From positions 1-64,000 of the forward strand of contig CAJTFB010000011.1 in the NCBI GenBank assembly GCA_910575665.1: a stretch of 64,000 nucleotides of DNA, given 5' to 3'. Below the pieces are notes generated by a model. That model was not told the DNA's origin. It did no database searches and saw only the letters and a list, made by a program, of their open reading frames with translations. Source of the stretch: Eubacteriaceae bacterium (GTDB lineage: Bacteria > Bacillota > Clostridia > Lachnospirales > Lachnospiraceae). Of the stretch, positions 38,129 to 47,926 are shown one piece after another (position 1 is the first letter of the stretch; every line of letters begins with the position of its first letter). Position numbers and translations under genes: made by a program.

Positions 38129-38157
38129 TTGAATTATCCCCAAATATATGTTATAAT
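38129..38157 (+). promoter_or_regulatory. Promoter of the carbonic anhydrase gene
   Basis: TTGAAT (38129-38134), a 17-base spacer and TATAAT (38152-38157). Confidence 0.75.
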
Positions 38158-38242: not shown

Positions 38243-38812
38243 ATGCAGGAACAAAAGGTAACAGCAGCGGAGGCAATGGATAAACTGATAGAGGGAAATA
38301 AACGTTATCTGACAGCGATGACAAATCCAGGAGATGTATCTCCGCAGATCAGGCAGGTTACTTGCGATGAGGGACAGAGTCCTTATGCCATCGTGATAAC
38401 ATGTTCGGATTCCCGGGTTATTCCTGAAAGTATTTTTAGCGCAGGCATCGGTGAATTGTTCGTCATCCGTGTGGCTGGAAATGTTATGGATAATCACCAG
38501 CTCGGCAGTGTCGAGTATGCGGCGGGCCACCTTGGAACCAAACTGGTAGTAGTGCTGGGCCACAGCCATTGTGGTGCCGTTGGTGCAGCGCTTCACCAGG
38601 AGCCGGATGGTTATACCAAGTTTATCACGGATGAGATCCGCAAGGCGATCGGCGGGGAGAAGGACGAATACCGCGCATGCTGCTTAAATGTTGAGAGAAG
38701 CGTGTCTATCATCAAAGAAAGCCTTGGTATTCATGAAGTGGATAACGATGGATTAAAGGTATGTGGTGCGGTATATCATATTGACAATGGTTCCGTGGAA
38801 TTTTTAGATTAA
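38243..38812 (+). CDS. Beta-class carbonic anhydrase
   Basis: The 189-residue enzyme hydrates carbon dioxide to bicarbonate, which carbamoyl-phosphate synthase and carboxylases need. The zinc ligands Cys and Asp are in CSDSRV (about residue 54) and His and Cys in GHSHCGAV (about residue 111). The ATG at 38243 follows GGAGG by nine bases; the frame opens 38 codons earlier at the promoter, which rules that start out. A strong terminator follows. Confidence 0.93.
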   Translation: MQEQKVTAAEAMDKLIEGNKRYLTAMTNPGDVSPQIRQVTCDEGQSPYAIVITCSDSRVIPESIFSAGIGELFVIRVAGNVMDNHQLGSVEYAAGHLGTKLVVVLGHSHCGAVGAALHQEPDGYTKFITDEIRKAIGGEKDEYRACCLNVERSVSIIKESLGIHEVDNDGLKVCGAVYHIDNGSVEFLD

Positions 38813-38864
38813 AGAAATAATGCGTACATAGGGAATTATCCCCAAATATGCGTAAACCTCCAAA

Positions 38865-38902: not shown

Positions 38903-38944
38903 TTGTGCAAAGTATTTCAAAATTTTTCTTTTTTTTGATAATTA

Positions 38945-38973
38945 TTGACATATTTACCAATTTATGTTAGAAT
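38945..38973 (+). promoter_or_regulatory. Promoter of the epipeptide gene island
   Basis: TTGACA (38945-38950), a 17-base spacer and TAGAAT (38968-38973), close to the housekeeping consensus. It precedes the ABC ATPase gene by about 36 bases. Confidence 0.85.
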
Positions 38974-39008
38974 CAAAATAATTTTAAAATTATAGTGAGG
39001 GAAAGATA

Positions 39009-39617
39009 TTGAAGCTAAGTAATTTTAATTTAAGCATTAAGAACAAAAAATTATTGACTGACGTAAATATTGAATTTTCAGATGGAAAAATAAATCATAT
39101 TCTTGGGAAAAATGGTGTGGGAAAATCGCTATTTGCAAAGAGTCTCATGTTTGACAATGAAAATATTACTGTTATAGGTAGCTATTCGAATGTTCCTGAA
39201 GATATAACCTTTAACGAATTGAAAAAAGTGCTGATAAAGAAGTTTGGCAGGGATAAGGTGGAACGCTTGTGCAGGATTTTAAACATATCTAATATAGATG
39301 AAAAGACGATACTTAAGAAGCTGAGCGATGGGCAAAGACAAAAAATCAAGATAATCGTATTTCTGCTATTTGATAAAGATATTATTATACTTGATGAAGT
39401 TACAAATGCCTTGGATAAAACAACTTCAAACGAAATTTATGACTTATTTAATGCTTATATAAAGAAGAATCCTAAAAAGGTAATTCTTAACATAACCCAT
39501 AATTTGTCAGATTTAAATAACATGGATGGAGAGTACTATCTTTTTGAAGATTACGATATTAAGAAATATAGTAACAGAAAAGAATTGATAGACTTATATA
39601 TTAATGGAGGTAACTAG
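39009..39617 (+). CDS. yydI: ABC transporter ATPase (YydI-like)
   Basis: The 202-residue ATP-binding protein has Walker A GKNGVGKS (33-40), signature LSDGQ (105-109), Walker B IIILDE (125-130) and a switch histidine in NITHN. With the next gene it should form a small half-size ABC transporter. The start is the TTG at 39009, seven bases after GAGGG. Length and position suit YydI of the B. subtilis yydFGHIJ operon, which exports or detoxifies an epipeptide. The whole island is much more AT-rich than the flanking genes, a sign of transfer. The role is inferred from context. Confidence 0.82.
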   Translation: MKLSNFNLSIKNKKLLTDVNIEFSDGKINHILGKNGVGKSLFAKSLMFDNENITVIGSYSNVPEDITFNELKKVLIKKFGRDKVERLCRILNISNIDEKTILKKLSDGQRQKIKIIVFLLFDKDIIILDEVTNALDKTTSNEIYDLFNAYIKKNPKKVILNITHNLSDLNNMDGEYYLFEDYDIKKYSNRKELIDLYINGGN

Positions 39618-40336
39618 TGTTTTATCTAGAATTTAAAAGAAGCATACATAATAAAACAATTATATATCTTATGACAGTAACTGCAGCAGCTTTTGTGATG
39701 GGGTGGGCGCTCCCTTTTAGTTTGGAGCATATAACAACTATCAAGTATGATTATTATATGTTCAGCACATATACAGTTTTTACGCAGTTCGGTTTTCTGC
39801 TTTTCGGTTTTGTAACTTCATATTTTTTCAATAAGGATTATAAGGATAGAAATACTATTTTTTACACGTGTTTTAAAATTAATGTTTTAAAATACTATTT
39901 GATTAAGATAACAATACTATTTTTTGAAGAGATTATATGTATTGCTGGAGGACTGCTAATTGTTGGTGCACTATTTAGTTCTTTCAAATATTTTCTACCA
40001 TGTCTTTTGCTTTATACAGTGGTAGTGTTTCAGTATTTTATTGTGGTTGGAGCAATCTCCCTTATATTTAAAAGTCTATTAATGTCACTTGGAATAAGTA
40101 TTATATATTGGATTAGCTCAATCGTCATTGTATCATTTGGTGGTATATGTAAGTATTTTGCGGTATTTGATGCCTCAAATTCGTTATATAGCTATGTTGA
40201 AAAATATTTTAGTCAGGGGATATCTGTGCAAGCAGCAGAATTTACAGATCCAGTTATTGGATTTGGACTTTTAATTGTTGTTGCTCTGATAATTATATTT
40301 GGTACTTCGAAAAAATGGATAATAAAAGGATTATAA
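39617..40336 (+). CDS. yydJ: ABC transporter permease (YydJ-like)
   Basis: The 239-residue protein is a plain membrane protein with about six hydrophobic helices (roughly 15-35, 55-75, 100-125, 130-155, 160-180 and 215-235). The GTG start shares one base with the TAG stop of the ATPase gene, so the two are translationally coupled and should make one transporter. Size and position fit YydJ, the permease partner in epipeptide operons, which is thought to give self-protection or export. No other signature was seen in the protein, so the identity rests mainly on its neighbours. Confidence 0.78.
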   Translation: MFYLEFKRSIHNKTIIYLMTVTAAAFVMGWALPFSLEHITTIKYDYYMFSTYTVFTQFGFLLFGFVTSYFFNKDYKDRNTIFYTCFKINVLKYYLIKITILFFEEIICIAGGLLIVGALFSSFKYFLPCLLLYTVVVFQYFIVVGAISLIFKSLLMSLGISIIYWISSIVIVSFGGICKYFAVFDASNSLYSYVEKYFSQGISVQAAEFTDPVIGFGLLIVVALIIIFGTSKKWIIKGL

Positions 40337-40343
40337 AGTTGAT

Positions 40344-41273
40344 ATGAGTAATTCGGTAGATATAAATATTGGTGCAAAATGTACAGCAAGTTGCAGGCAT
40401 TGTTGTTTTTCATGCACACCAGATTCATCAGAATGTTTAAGTGATAAAGAAATTGATGGGATTTTAGATTTTATAGAATCAAATAAAAATATTACATCTG
40501 TTTCAATAACAGGGGGAGAACCTCTGTTAAGATATGAAAAGGTTAAAGAAATAGTAAGAAAGTGTCATGGCTTCCCAAAGACTGTTTCTCTTATTACAAA
40601 TGGTTTTTGGGGGAAAAAATTGGAGAATGCCTTAAGTATAACTAAAGAACTAAAAAACTGCGGATTGGATATTATAACGCTTAGTTATGACGATTATCAT
40701 AAAGAATATATTCCACCCCAATACATATCCAATGCATTAATGGCAATCAAGGCAGTCAACATAAAGGCAGCATTAAACATCACCGTAGATAAAAACAGAC
40801 ATAATCTTAATCTTGTTGAAGAACTGGGTGAGGCAGTCTTTGGTATTCAACTTGGAATAATGCCAGTTTGCAGGACAGGTAATGCTAATGATATAGATGA
40901 AACAGAATTATATGTGCATGAAAGCAATATGATATCTAAACGTTGTCCAGCTTTCCAATGGGAGATTGCTATACATCATGATGGATATGTCTATCCATGT
41001 TGTTCACCAATGGTTTTTGAAACAGGGTTGAGATTAGGCAATATAAGAAAGCAGTCTTTAGCTGAAATTGCGCATAATATAGAAACTAATGGTCTATTAT
41101 ACATAATTAAAAGAGAAGGGTTAATGTGGTTTGAAGAAAGGTTGGGCTTGGATTTATCAGAAAAGAAATATGTAAATACATGTGAAATATGCAAGGCTAT
41201 ATTTTCTGATAGTGATAATATTTCAAAGATAACGCCAAGTGTCGTAGAATATTATGAAAATAAAATTTTATAA
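40344..41273 (+). CDS. yydG: Radical SAM peptide epimerase (YydG-like)
   Basis: The 309-residue enzyme has the radical SAM cluster CTASCRHC (C13, C17, C20) and the SITGGEP motif at 54-60. The C-terminal part has further cysteines (C201, C219, C220, C280, C283) like the SPASM-type region that holds an extra iron-sulfur cluster. In B. subtilis YydG, a cysteine in this region gives the hydrogen atom when L-Val and L-Ile of YydF are turned into D-residues; C219 or C220 are the candidates here. It lies eight bases after the permease gene and overlaps the next gene. The precursor encoded downstream supports epimerase rather than thioether chemistry, since that peptide has no cysteine. Confidence 0.85.
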   Translation: MSNSVDINIGAKCTASCRHCCFSCTPDSSECLSDKEIDGILDFIESNKNITSVSITGGEPLLRYEKVKEIVRKCHGFPKTVSLITNGFWGKKLENALSITKELKNCGLDIITLSYDDYHKEYIPPQYISNALMAIKAVNIKAALNITVDKNRHNLNLVEELGEAVFGIQLGIMPVCRTGNANDIDETELYVHESNMISKRCPAFQWEIAIHHDGYVYPCCSPMVFETGLRLGNIRKQSLAEIAHNIETNGLLYIIKREGLMWFEERLGLDLSEKKYVNTCEICKAIFSDSDNISKITPSVVEYYENKIL

Positions 41274-42021
41274 GTATGAAGATACAAAAAATGAAATAAT
41301 ATCAGATGGAACGACCTGTATGACTATAAAGGATAAGACCACTGGAAGGTATTATGAAGTTCCTGTTAATGATAGCAACTGTAACAATTTTGAAAAAATA
41401 TCATGGGATATAAAGGAAACCTATCATTCGTTTGTTCTTCTGTGTATTTATTGGGTTGTGTTTATTGCATTAACAATGATGAATATACATATGATTGTAG
41501 CTGCGTCGATAATAGATAAAGTTTTATCAGGGAAATTTATCGCTGCATTGTTGATTTATTTGTTCATATTTATAATATTTCATGAACTTGGGCATCTATA
41601 TATGTTATATATAAGTGGAAGAAAGGCGAACAAGATAGGCTTCAAATTTAATTACATATTTCCGTCTTTTTATGTACAGATTAATGAAATTTATATGCTT
41701 GATAAAATCCAAAAGTTGTATATACATTCAGGCGGATTAATGGCTAGTCTTATAATGAATGTTGGAACATATGTGATGGGATGTATTTTCAATATTAATG
41801 TGCTTATGGCAGTTTCTACATATATGTCTGTAACCATTGTGTATAATATGATTCCATTAATGAATTCCGACGGCTATAAAATTTTAATAACTTTTTTGAA
41901 TAGAGCAGAGAAAAAGGATGCAAAAAATAATTGTAAGTTAATAAGTATTATCAGAGTTATTAACATCTTGTTTACTATAGCTTATACAATTGCATTTTTC
42001 TCAAATATTATTAATGATTAA
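41254..42021 (+). CDS. yydH: Intramembrane metallopeptidase of M50 type (YydH-like)
   Basis: The 255-residue membrane protein has the zinc motif HELGH (110-114) at the end of a hydrophobic helix and a second metal-ligand motif NSDGYK (204-209), the form seen in M50 site-2-type proteases. Several further helices are visible, and residues 1-55 are soluble. It overlaps the radical SAM gene by 20 bases. In the YydFGHIJ system the membrane peptidase YydH is thought to cut the leader from the modified precursor. The same role is inferred here; the cutting site would lie just before Trp33 of the peptide. Confidence 0.82.
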   Translation: MKIKFYKYEDTKNEIISDGTTCMTIKDKTTGRYYEVPVNDSNCNNFEKISWDIKETYHSFVLLCIYWVVFIALTMMNIHMIVAASIIDKVLSGKFIAALLIYLFIFIIFHELGHLYMLYISGRKANKIGFKFNYIFPSFYVQINEIYMLDKIQKLYIHSGGLMASLIMNVGTYVMGCIFNINVLMAVSTYMSVTIVYNMIPLMNSDGYKILITFLNRAEKKDAKNNCKLISIIRVINILFTIAYTIAFFSNIIND

Positions 42022-42275
42022 AAGGTTTAATAATAAAACATTAGATGTAAAGGAGATATTACAATTATGGAAAAAGAAGTATTAGATCAGAGCCTTAATA
42101 TGGACAAAATTGCGGAATTAATGACAGAAGCTAATGAGTTAGAGGATGTAAATGACCTTGCATGGTATTTTATCAAGGGTGCTGGTAATCGTTGGATCAT
42201 TGGTGCATACTAAGAAATACTAAATACCTGAGAAATTTTTATTAGTAACTATATAAAATAATTATTAAACCTTTT
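42020..42275. repeat. 15-base inverted repeat flanking the precursor gene
   Basis: AAAAGGTTTAATAAT (42020-42034) is repeated exactly in reverse complement at 42261-42275, with the precursor gene between. In mRNA the two arms could pair and enclose the precursor coding unit. Confidence 0.85.
42067..42213 (+). CDS. yydF: Epipeptide precursor (YydF-like)
   Basis: The 48-residue peptide begins MEKEVLDQSL and ends WYFIKGAGNRWIIGAY. B. subtilis YydF ends WYFVKSKENRWILGSGH; W33, Y34, F35, K37, N41, R42, W43, I44 and G46 are identical at the same numbers, and VNDL stands just ahead in both. YydF carries D-Val36 and D-Ile44, and here Ile36 and Ile44 occupy those positions. AAGGAG lies eleven bases before the ATG. 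The acidic leader (1-32) would be removed to give a 16-residue product. The peptide has no cysteine, serine near the core or threonine in it, which argues against thioether or lanthionine types. It is the last gene of the island. Confidence 0.88.
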   Translation: MEKEVLDQSLNMDKIAELMTEANELEDVNDLAWYFIKGAGNRWIIGAY

Positions 42276-42282
42276 GATAAAT

Positions 42283-42320
42283 GGAGTTCAACGAGTGTAA
42301 CGAGTTGGACTCCTGTTTAT
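42283..42320 (+). terminator. Terminator after the epipeptide precursor
   Basis: GGAGTTCAAC (42283-42292) pairs with GTTGGACTCC (42304-42313), with one wobble, followed by TGTTTATTTC. It closes the island. Confidence 0.7.
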
Positions 42321-42386
42321 TTCTGGTAGTAATATGAACACAGAAAAAGGCTCTATATAATATAGCAAAGCAGCTTTTAATAAAAG

Positions 42387-42420
42387 GCCTCCTATGATTT
42401 TTATTTTATCATAGAAGACC
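42387..42420 (-). terminator. Terminator of pyrB-pyrI
   Basis: CTATGAT (42392-42398) and ATCATAG (42408-42414) form the stem, with extra GG/CC pairs outside. Read on the minus strand the stem is followed by CCTTTTATT. Confidence 0.65.
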
Positions 42421-42467
42421 AGTTATTTCTTTACTTTACAGAAAAAGTTCCCGAGTCTCACCAGAAT

Positions 42468-42899
42468 TCATTTAAACTGCCCTTTGAATTTCTGTTCACA
42501 GTATAGACAGCGGTAGATTCGGTTCTTTTTGTCTGTGAGTTTAAAGCGATGGGGCAACTCCTGTTCGATGGATGTAATGCAGCGGGGATTTTTACATTTT
42601 ATAATATTTGTGACGATATCCGGCAGCGTCAGCGTCCGTTTTTCCACGATTTTGTCATTCTCAATGATATTGATCGTTATGTGTTCGTCCAGAACACCGA
42701 GAATATCCAGGTCCACCCGGAGGGGGCCTTCTATTTTTATAATGTCCTTTTTTCCCATTTTATTGCTTTTCGCATTTTTAATGATTGCTACACTGCAGTC
42801 CAGTTTTTCCAGGTTCAGGTACTGATAGATCTCCATGGCATGTCCTGCTTTGATATGGTCGATCACGACACCTTGGTTCAGTCCACCGATATTTAACAT
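42468..42899 (-). CDS. pyrI: Aspartate carbamoyltransferase regulatory subunit
   Basis: PyrI (143 residues) binds nucleotides and transmits feedback to PyrB. The C-terminal zinc site that holds the two chains together is visible as CKNPRC and CLYC. It lies 42 bases after pyrB, the normal order for the pyrBI pair. It marks the enteric-like, allosteric form of the enzyme, which is also found in Clostridia but not in Bacillus. Confidence 0.95.
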   Translation of the reverse strand: MLNIGGLNQGVVIDHIKAGHAMEIYQYLNLEKLDCSVAIIKNAKSNKMGKKDIIKIEGPLRVDLDILGVLDEHITINIIENDKIVEKRTLTLPDIVTNIIKCKNPRCITSIEQELPHRFKLTDKKNRIYRCLYCEQKFKGQFK

Positions 42900-42941
42900 A
42901 TAAAGTTACCTCCCGTCGATAATATGTGAAAAATTTCTCTG

Positions 42942-43859
42942 TCAGATCTTGATCTGAAGTAGAGTCAGGATCAGCGCCATTCGTATATATACACCGTATT
43001 GTGCCTGTTTAAAATATACCGCCCTGGGATCGTTGTCTACTTCTGTAGAAATTTCATTTACCCTTGGAAGCGGATGGAGTACCAGCATGTCCTCCCTTGC
43101 CAGCTTCATTTTCGAGGTGTCTAGAATAAAACTGTCTTTTAAACGGATATAATCTTCTTCATTAAAGAAACGCTCCCTTTGTACCCTGGTCATGTACAGA
43201 ATATCCAGATCCCCGATAACGGCATCCAGATCGCTGACTTCCTGGTAAGGAATATGGTTTTCATCCAGGGTTTCTTTCCGCAGATAATCCGGGATCTTTA
43301 ATTCAGGAGGGGAGATCAGCACAAATTCCACCCCGGGATAACGAACCATGGCATCGATCAGGGAGTGCACAGTCCGACCAAATTTAAGGTCACCGCAGAA
43401 ACCAATTTTCAAGTGATCAAAATGCCCCTTGAGATTTTTGATGGTAAGCAGGTCAGTAAGTGTCTGCGTCGGATGATTGTGCCCGCCGTCCCCGGCATTG
43501 ATGACAGGGATGGAAGAATACATGGATGCCACAAGGGGCGCTCCTTCTTTTGGGTGTCTCATGGCACAAATATCTGCATAGGAAGAGATGACGCGGATGG
43601 TATCTGCCACACTTTCTCCCTTAGAAGCAGAACTCGAATCGGCAGAAGAAAAACCAAGGACACTGCCGCCAAGATTCAGCATAGCGGCTTCAAAACTAAG
43701 TCTTGTTCGTGTACTTGGTTCGTAAAAACAAGTTGCAAGCTTTTTTCCTTTACAACATTCGGTATATTTTTCCGGTGTTTCCATAATCTGTTCGGCAAGA
43801 AGGATCAGATTGTCCAGTTCCTCTACCGACAGATCCAGAGCATTCATAATATGTCGCAT
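42942..43859 (-). CDS. pyrB: Aspartate carbamoyltransferase catalytic subunit
   Basis: PyrB (305 residues) joins carbamoyl phosphate and aspartate at the first committed step of pyrimidine synthesis, using the product of CarAB. The carbamoyl phosphate loop [13 protein letters not shown] (about residue 50) and the HPLPRVNEI segment are clear. The start is the ATG at 43859; a GTG four codons ahead is part of the ribosome site GTGAGG. Confidence 0.97.
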
Positions 43860-43912
43860 AAAATACCTCACTCCGTTAGCAAAAACGGTTCTGTAACATT
43901 AATTTCTTAAAT

Positions 43913-46420: not shown

Positions 46421-46508
46421 GTGGCGCCAGCCACGTAAAAGTGCTGGGACAGCACTATGGCACTGTAAAGTGCCGAGGCGTTGCGAGCAGGATAAAGGGC
46501 GCCAGCCC
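46421..46508. repeat. Cluster of four short hairpins
   Basis: Four hairpins stand in a row: GTGGCGCCAGCCAC (46421-46434), AGTGCTG-GGA-CAGCACT (46440-46456), GGCACT-GTAA-AGTGCC (46459-46474) and GGGCGCCAGCCC (46497-46508). The first and last share a GCCA loop. It looks like a REP-type element or structured RNA. The bases from 46509 to 46627 contain only a possible promoter (TTTCAA 46567-46572, TATAAT 46591-46596). Confidence 0.6.
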
Positions 46509-46627
46509 GGAGAATGTAATTGCCATTGTTAAACATACCCCGTGGTAGATCTACATGTGATTTTTGTTTCAAGATGAGTACAGAAGCTGTTATAATATTT
46601 TGAGTTAAATAGCAGAACATGTAAAGC

Positions 46628-46789
46628 GAGGGATAGGTTATGGAACGAACTGAAAGAGTTGAATTGACAGTATTATGTTTAGTACACAGTGAAGATGCTT
46701 ATTTGTTGGAGGGATAGGTTATGGAACGAACTGAAAGAGTTGAATTGACAGTATTATGTTTAGTACACAGTGAAGATGCTTATTTGTTG
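46628..46789 (+). repeat. 81-bp perfect tandem duplication over a gene start
   Basis: Bases 46628-46708 and 46709-46789 are identical. The unit contains the ribosome site GAGGGATAGG, the ATG and the first 23 codons of the NUDIX gene. The length is a multiple of three, but the duplicated leader brings a TAG into frame. Confidence 0.95.
46640..46717 (+). pseudogene. Truncated duplicate of the NUDIX gene start
   Basis: Starting at the first copy of the ATG, 25 residues are read (MERTERVELTVLCLVHSED and so on) before TAG at 46715-46717, which comes from the repeated leader. It is a by-product of the tandem duplication. If translated, ribosomes would stop four bases before the intact start and might re-initiate there. 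Confidence 0.8.
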
Positions 46790-47170
46790 CAGGATAGAGT
46801 AAAAGAAGATTGGAAAGGCTATACCTTACCAGGTGGACATATTGAAAATGGAGAGTCGATTGTTCATGCCGTAGTACGTGAAATGAAAGAGGAAACAGGC
46901 TTAACAATTTTAAATCCAAAACTTTGTGGAGTAAAACAGTTTCCTATAGAAGATGGGCGGTATATTGTTTTCCTTTTTAAAGCAGATAAATATAAAGGAA
47001 AACTTACTTCTTCATCGGAAGGGAATATGCATTGGGTAAGAAGGGAAGAATTATCCAATGTGAATTTAGTAGGTGATTTTTATGAGATACTTCAAGTAAT
47101 ATTAGATGATAATTTAAATGAATTTCAATATATTTGTGAAGGTGATCAATGGAAAATTGAACTGAAATAA
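46721..47170 (+). CDS. NUDIX hydrolase (MutT-like)
   Basis: The 149-residue protein has a full NUDIX box, GGHIENGESIVHAVVREMKE, at residues 38-57, and the MutT-like spacing of strands. Relatives clean up oxidised nucleotides such as 8-oxo-dGTP, but the substrate here is not shown. The start follows the second copy of GAGGGATAGG. DNA is AT-rich compared with the neighbouring hydratase. It stands between a hairpin repeat and an insertion-sequence relic. Confidence 0.85.
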   Translation: MERTERVELTVLCLVHSEDAYLLQDRVKEDWKGYTLPGGHIENGESIVHAVVREMKEETGLTILNPKLCGVKQFPIEDGRYIVFLFKADKYKGKLTSSSEGNMHWVRREELSNVNLVGDFYEILQVILDDNLNEFQYICEGDQWKIELK

Positions 47171-47172
47171 GA

Positions 47173-47440
47173 ATGTTTATATTTACTATTTTTCCATATG
47201 CTACAGGTTTTTTACGGACTTCCGAAACAACAAAAATAGGTAGATTTGTATCCGATGAAGATATATTGAGTATTTTAGAAAGATTAATTCAACAAAATAG
47301 AGAAGTCTATAATGTACATTTTCTAAAATGGAGGTGTTTCAAAACATTAAGTTTTAATGTATTTAGAAAATGTTTTTTAGATTCCACAGGACACCATTTC
47401 GCACATGTGGAAAAAGAAATGAAAAGTTTGCTTCCATTAG
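47173..47440 (+). other. Unrecognised gene debris before the IS256 relic
   Basis: An open frame begins MFIFTIFPYATGF and passes through KIGRFVSDEDILSILERLIQ into the IS-derived sequence. It has no credible ribosome site and resembles nothing I can name; it is probably a fragment fused by insertion. Confidence 0.35.
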
Positions 47441-47926
47441 GTAGTGTAAATAAATTTGTGTTTCTGGAAATAAATGGCTCCTTTTTGGTAAAAATCAAGA
47501 TATGGAAATTTTTATCGAAAAGGAGTGTTTTTATGCCAGTAGCAAAGGAACAGATTCGACAGATTATCTCAGAAAACAACTTAAACAGCGTCACAGACGT
47601 CTACTCCCTCCTACGGGACAGTTTCAAGGACATCCTTGACATCCGCCGGATCATGTATACAACGAATATCATAGAAGGGCTGAACCGCCAGTACCGGAAA
47701 GTAACCAAGACAAAAAGCGTATTCCCAAGCGACACATCCCTGGAAAAGATGCTGTATCTGGCAAGCCAGAATATAACAAAGAAATGGACGCAGAGATACC
47801 GGAACTGGGATCAGGTGCTGAACCAGCTGGTTGTCCTGTACGGAGAGCGGCTTACGGATCATTTATAAAAAGATACGTAAAACCGACAAAAAATCTGTAC
47901 ATATTTTATTCTTATCAGAAAAGTCT
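47441..47926 (+). mobile_element. Internally deleted IS256-type element
   Basis: The right end (47880-47926) matches bases 20-68 of the window. The left end is placed near GTAGTGTAAATAAATTTGTG (47441) because AT-rich bases there loosely mirror the right end. The element keeps both tips but lost most of the transposase, so it could move only with a transposase from elsewhere. Confidence 0.6.
47533..47868 (+). pseudogene. IS256-family transposase with internal deletion
   Basis: The 111-residue frame joins the N-terminus of an IS256 transposase (MPVAKEQIRQIISENNLNSV) directly to its C-terminus (DIRRIMYTTNIIEGLNRQYRK to the end). A normal copy has about 400 residues, so most of the catalytic core, including the two DDE aspartates, is gone; the glutamate in NIIEGLNR remains. 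The joint lies at a repeated GACATCC (47629-47635 and 47638-47644), typical of a deletion by short homology. The frame is preserved, so a short protein could still be made. Confidence 0.85.

Follow-up and report, generated by a model that had tools for sequence, protein, structure and literature searches.

An intact, divergent and rearranged epipeptide operon in a Lachnospiraceae genome

A 64,000-nucleotide (nt) stretch of DNA from a Eubacteriaceae bacterium of the family Lachnospiraceae (assembly GCA_910575665.1, contig CAJTFB010000011.1, positions 1 to 64,000; hereafter the window) carries five adjacent plus-strand genes at 39009-42213 that correspond to the epipeptide genes of Bacillus subtilis (yydFGHIJ, also named epeXEPAB). 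All five frames are open, and their order is yydI-yydJ-yydG-yydH-yydF. The first gene, yydI (epeA; 39009-39617, TTG start), encodes the 202-residue ATPase of an ATP-binding cassette (ABC) transporter of the epipeptide immunity/export type, and the second, yydJ (epeB; 39617-40336, GTG start), the 239-residue ABC permease, whose hydropathy profile contains six hydrophobic peaks, two of them overlapping. These are followed by yydG (epeE; 40344-41273), for a 309-residue protein of the radical S-adenosylmethionine (SAM) peptide epimerase family with a C13-x3-C17-x2-C20 motif; by yydH (epeP; 41254-42021), for a 255-residue membrane metallopeptidase of the M50 type with HELGH and NMIPLMNSDG motifs; and by yydF (epeX; 42067-42213), for a 48-residue epipeptide precursor with the core WYFIKGAGNRWIIGAY. 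An initial annotation of the locus had described the genes as overlapping, which holds for yydI/yydJ (1 nt) and yydG/yydH (20 nt) but not for yydJ/yydG and yydH/yydF, where gaps of 7 and 45 nt, respectively, intervene.

The same annotation had assigned the genes to the yydIJGH and yydF types, and searches with profile hidden Markov models (HMMs) bear this out, with NCBIfam profiles naming all five. YydI (NF058610, 249.5 bits, cut-off 240, E 2.5e-74), YydG (TIGR04078, 309.3 bits, cut-off 300, E 3.2e-92) and YydF (TIGR04077, 46.6 bits, cut-off 35, E 2.4e-12) score above the curated cut-offs, and YydJ (NF058605, 234.6 bits, cut-off 270, E 1.4e-69) and YydH (NF058609, a YydH/LiaK model, 197.2 bits, cut-off 225, E 3.4e-58) below them; judged by E-value, all five matches are far beyond chance. 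The small peptide thus has YydF homologs, and the radical SAM protein matches YydG best by far (the runner-up family reaches 52.9 bits) and groups with YydG-type enzymes in trees, as the annotation had proposed. YydI is 51% identical to YydI of a Macrococcoides plasmid and YydJ 41% identical to Macrococcoides YydJ. Among Pfam families, ABC_tran, Radical_SAM and SPASM lie above threshold, the latter two in YydG; Peptidase_M50 (PF02163) matches YydH at 27.0 bits, just under its threshold of 27.2, and a Pfam search of YydJ and YydF returned no match. Present together at the locus are the features of the epipeptide class: a YydF-family precursor, a YydG/EpeE enzyme with CX3CX2C and an equivalent of Cys223, a YydH/EpeP-type protein, and homologs of YydIJ/EpeAB.

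The precursor was aligned with those of other loci. The string VNDLWYF is found in 14 of 16 aligned precursors; the window peptide reads VNDLAWYF, with a one-residue insertion (Ala32) where leader meets core, and a YydF-like peptide from another genus of the same family (genome G138, locus L029) reads VLSLWYF. Further into the core, Trp33-Tyr-Phe, Ile36, Trp43, Ile44 and Gly46 of the window peptide fall into aligned columns. The B. subtilis product is described, in passages of two sources, as a 17-mer that follows a 32-residue leader and is epimerised at residues 36 and 44 (PMC8326336, PMC7026026). Ile36 and Ile44 of the window YydF occupy those columns (Val36 and Ile44 in B. subtilis), and isoleucine at the first target is also seen in two Paenibacillus loci (L033 and L042). 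Because both positions are isoleucine, two D-allo-Ile residues are predicted, and the mature peptide is expected to be either the 16-mer WYFIKGAGNRWIIGAY or a 17-mer that begins at Ala32. The window peptide differs from its B. subtilis counterpart in the first target (Ile rather than Val) and in the extra alanine ahead of the tryptophan that starts the mature peptide; it ends in GAY, whereas B. subtilis-group loci end in GSGH. The 48 residues include no cysteine, and we rejected a sactipeptide, which needs a Cys-containing core for its thioether bonds.

The presumed epimerase retains the landmarks of its family. Residues 3-306 match the solved YydG chains 8ai1-8ai6 with E-values of 3e-52 to 4e-51 (3.2e-52 for 8ai1), and alignment with 8ai1 shows that both C-x3-C-x2-C and a PCCSP motif are kept, the latter as Cys219-Cys220 in the window. 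Eight cysteines (C13, C17, C20, C201, C219, C220, C280 and C283) are invariant with respect to two Macrococcus-type plasmid enzymes; one alignment column holds Asp in 8ai1, Ala in 8ai6 and Glu in the window enzyme. Cys223 is the proposed hydrogen donor of EpeE according to PMC8326336. Given a construct offset of 25, a value that we infer, the PCCSP motif would correspond to Cys222-Cys223, and Cys220 would be the window equivalent of the donor.

Two enzyme trees place the window protein within the YydG group (17 rows in the first), with support of 87/85 in the first and 100/100 in the second, where the value belongs to the branch leading to a chosen outgroup. Inside the group it branches deeply and falls neither in the Bacilli YydG clade (100/99, 13 rows) nor with three YydG-like enzymes from its own family; the fork that excludes it has support of 83/81 and 94/91, and long branches meet there. 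Such a position, together with the unrelated small peptides that adjoin its relatives in the family, would fit an enzyme that alters a YydF-like peptide in some other way, such as by a cross-link. We nevertheless consider this very improbable: the cysteine-free precursor excludes Cys-based thioethers of the sactipeptide kind, TIGR04078 is passed with the next family far behind, and the PCCSP motif of EpeE is retained.

Comparison with other loci indicates that the gene order is a distinctive property of the window operon. A contig profile scan with a three-sequence enzyme alignment yielded 20 loci, where an earlier contig scan with the single window protein as query had found no relative. Twelve carry all five genes as F-G-H-I-J (in Enterococcus, Paenibacillus, Staphylococcus, Bacillus, Heyndrickxia and Macrococcoides), and the other eight hold radical SAM relatives only, some with a scattered weak match. 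Counting two annotated Macrococcus-type plasmids, F-G-H-I-J is found in 14 of 14 Bacilli loci, a set that is partly dependent (the enzymes of two Bacillus loci are identical, as are the precursors of two Macrococcoides loci), which upholds the permuted I-J-G-H-F order first read from the window. In locus L038 the peptide gene lies ~0.9 kb ahead of yydG. With B. subtilis the window operon shares the five gene families, a core with two target positions, a compact operon and the yydG/yydH overlap, as seen in the B. subtilis-group relatives L036 and L037, and differs in order; with loci of Paenibacillus, Enterococcus, Staphylococcus and Macrococcus type (L015, L016, L032-L035, L040, L042 and L043) it likewise shares the five genes but not their F-G-H-I-J arrangement. 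The yydG/yydH overlap spans 17-35 nt in the seven Bacilli loci measured, taking longest-open-reading-frame starts.

Within the family sample, two epipeptide loci came to light. Since TIGR04078 at E 0.001 is unspecific (31 of 61 genomes match it, as do 11 of 14 controls), only matches at cut-off level or supported by their neighbourhood were counted. Seven of 397 genomes in a family sample, the window's own included, match YydG at E 1e-20; a YydF-like gene is present in two of these (the window's own and G138), other small peptides lie nearby in G186, G337 and G308, and the neighbourhoods of G147 and G152 were left out. The YydF model is passed by the window's own genome only in samples, partly overlapping, of the family (1/397), class (1/391) and phylum (1/398), and YydJ is found there alone among 265 genomes of a class sample. 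No other YydG above cut-off was found in 37 genomes of the genus (own included, several incomplete). Neither yydF nor yydG was found a second time in the window's own genome; its three weak YydG matches, none better than E 1.6e-5, we assigned to different radical SAM genes or to a short, interrupted frame. Weak TIGR04077 matches (G611, G897 and seven of nine in the family sample; E ~0.002-0.01) were treated as chance, and the G611 contig holds no yyd gene besides a weak radical SAM match.

The second epipeptide locus in the family sample, that of G138 alone (L029:3556-6783), shares the internal order I-J-G-H and a YydF-like peptide (30.8 bits against a cut-off of 35); it differs in that the peptide gene comes first (F-I-J-G-H) and yydG is broken by two stops, with the other four frames open. 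This broken relative, and the fact that the window's genome alone passes the YydG cut-off within its genus, raise the question of whether the window operon too might have decayed or fallen silent, being retained just for a transporter that protects against the epipeptides of others. The five open frames, a strong promoter match and the conserved peptide core argue against such decay, which we hold to be scarcely probable here.

Other arrangements of YydG-like genes were noted in passing. At L027:4534-6427 and L028:4499-6267, YydG-like and YydH-like enzymes adjoin two mutually similar small peptides, MDLTELEEMEALESPTCILGSWFFVYK and MDLSEFEEVPTVESSVCLVVGSGYVIVCK, that no NCBIfam model matched at E 0.01; these may represent a class of their own among epimerase-modified peptides of the family. 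At L026:11-5418, the neighbours of a YydG-like enzyme are a large ABC protein, another radical SAM-like protein, in which CX3CX2C was read by eye, and a 50-residue peptide that has a GG-type leader and ends in GGVAPILGPIK; here too a YydG-like gene is paired with an unrelated precursor. In G051, a genome of the same order, a short frame (L011:1438-1818) resembles the C-terminal part of YydG, and the frame beside it we take to be membrane-protease-like.

The chromosomal setting of the operon points to its acquisition. To its left lies a carbonic anhydrase-family gene (~38243-38812; its best NCBIfam model is below cut-off), and to its right, in minus-strand orientation, pyrI/pyrB (42468-43871; both above cut-off). 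The operon has a guanine-plus-cytosine (GC) content of 29.9%, against 45.1% for the whole window, and a third-position GC fraction of 0.23-0.33 across the five yyd genes; in four flanking genes this fraction is 0.45-0.57. In three congeners, an approximate island of 38905-42453 is without a match at this site, its left limit being set by G018 and its right limit by G004: homology reaches 38831 (G017), 38869 (G004) and 38904 (G018) on the left and resumes at 42467, 42454 and 42470, respectively, on the right. The carbonic anhydrase and pyrI matches are 128 nt apart on one contig of G017, and ~1.9 and ~1.5 kb apart in G004 and G018, where different open frames lie between them. Because the site is empty in one congener and otherwise filled in two, the gap is a variable site, into which the operon was most simply inserted; the transfer suggested initially from AT-richness hence gains stronger backing from the congener comparison than from base composition alone. 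Such frames occupy the gap at L060:1168-2989 and L061:1237-2614, from two congeneric species.

As for the source and vehicle of the island, none of the Bacilli sampled is a recent donor, since YydG identity is no more than 36%. A plasmid origin was rejected (two of 12 plasmid records have an annotated YydG, both Macrococcus-type, and the other ten are at or below 29% identity), as was a phage origin (phages gave one weak match, to an unannotated record, and viral contigs two weak partial matches). No Rfam family or transfer RNA was found in the window, and the open-reading-frame list contains no additional long frame on the plus strand of the island that could encode an integrase, though no HMM search for integrases was made. 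Two further features were seen: a direct repeat, GAATTATCCCCAAATAT, at 38131-38147 and 38833-38849, which by eye closely flanks the carbonic anhydrase gene on both sides, and another AT-rich dip at 46500-47749 (GC 0.28-0.36).

Predicted expression signals agree with the initial proposal of one promoter before the genes and one terminator after them. A sigma-A-type match on the plus strand (38945-38973; TTGACA-17-TAGAAT, with TG before the -10) scores 11 of 12 by consensus and is the top-scoring site of the region, in which promoter-like sites overall are at shuffled level (28 versus a mean of 25.1). At the operon end, a plus-strand terminator-like hairpin (42276-42321; -19.5 kcal/mol, z -4.64, none of 200 shuffles as good) has a modest T-run and is absent from the terminator scan list. 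Around yydF lies an 18-nt inverted repeat on the plus strand (left arm 42017-42034, right arm 42261-42278; 94% complementary, one mismatch). A comparable pair occurs in 10 of 1000 shuffled islands, in a test made after the repeat was seen. Ten other loci, of 15, were tested, and within 100 nt on either side of yydF their best pairs measure 9-12 nt; L015, L016, L032, L033, L035 and L040 have none comparable. The yydF unit as a whole folds only mildly better than its shuffles (z -1.59), 8 of 100 of which do as well. We rejected the idea that the repeat marks where a repeated element ends: genome-wide, no site other than the two arms matches with two mismatches or fewer, and at three mismatches, with nine further sites, a backward control exceeds the pattern (20 versus 11 matches). 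The repeat is suggestive. One speculative reading, which we think unlikely, is that yydF is a separately moved cassette within the repeat, and that the messenger RNA would fold into a stem reaching from the stop codon of yydH as far as the terminator hairpin. Processing would then leave stable yydF RNA more abundant than that of the enzyme genes, and the immunity genes yydIJ would be transcribed first. If true, the permuted operon would overcome the drawback of having its precursor gene last.

Taken together, we conclude with considerable confidence that the epipeptide operon is complete, that it was acquired in the form of a small genomic island and that it would act as its B. subtilis counterpart does. 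Beyond the gene content, homology, conserved residues, gene order and island site observed at the locus, its activities (epimerisation, cleavage, export, killing and immunity) are modelled on B. subtilis, for which passages of PMC12871923 describe epimerisation by YydG, release by YydH, membrane perturbation and self-protection by YydIJ. By this analogy, YydF would be produced as a 48-residue precursor; YydG would invert the alpha-carbons of Ile36 and Ile44, with Cys220 (aligned to Cys223) as hydrogen donor; YydH would cut at or beside Ala32/Trp33, freeing a peptide of ~16-17 residues that would perturb Gram-positive membranes; and YydIJ would protect the producer.

Several points weigh against this conclusion. 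Only three of the five proteins (YydI, YydG and YydF) pass their NCBIfam cut-offs, which serve for naming and do not define the class, and YydJ and YydH fall short. The window YydG is 30-36% identical to Bacilli YydG and at most 36% to any YydG in the tree, and joining it to either the Bacilli clade or the three enzymes of its own family is not rejected (approximately unbiased test, p-AU 0.081 and 0.074). Because the three YydG-like enzymes of the family adjoin peptides other than YydF (in G186, G337 and G308), a YydG-like enzyme alone is no proof of YydF chemistry. The precursor gene comes last, unlike in the 14 Bacilli loci, the order there being typical rather than class-defining, and the extra Ala32 could shift cleavage. 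Finally, deletion of epeP in B. subtilis leaves the product not fully abolished, according to passages of PMC10885120, so that the YydH step is uncertain even there.

The title of a 2021 paper by Popp et al. calls the epipeptide locus widely distributed in Firmicutes. Passages of PMC7614699 also describe such loci as widely distributed among Firmicutes, and those of a review name Enterococcus, Streptococcus and Staphylococcus as further carriers (PMC8326336); the passages of PMC10885120 describe no epipeptide locus of Lachnospiraceae. Epipeptide clusters included in a large refactoring study yielded no modified peptide in E. coli (PMC9576775). Epipeptide loci in Firmicutes and NCBI models naming all five genes are therefore already known, and the window operon is an intact, divergent and rearranged member of a described antimicrobial class, not a new kind of system. 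What differs in the window is the permuted order, the deep enzyme branch, the extra residue between leader and core, and the 18-nt inverted repeat.

With this locus, an intact, divergent epipeptide operon is seen outside the Bacilli, in a family where some YydG-like enzymes accompany different precursors. Because the window enzyme branches, tentatively, near the split between the Bacilli epimerases and their relatives, it offers a useful test of the residues that govern target choice, and both the leader/core insertion and the isoleucine at each target are directly testable. If the product is antimicrobial, the operon would be a candidate for a role in competition among clostridia.

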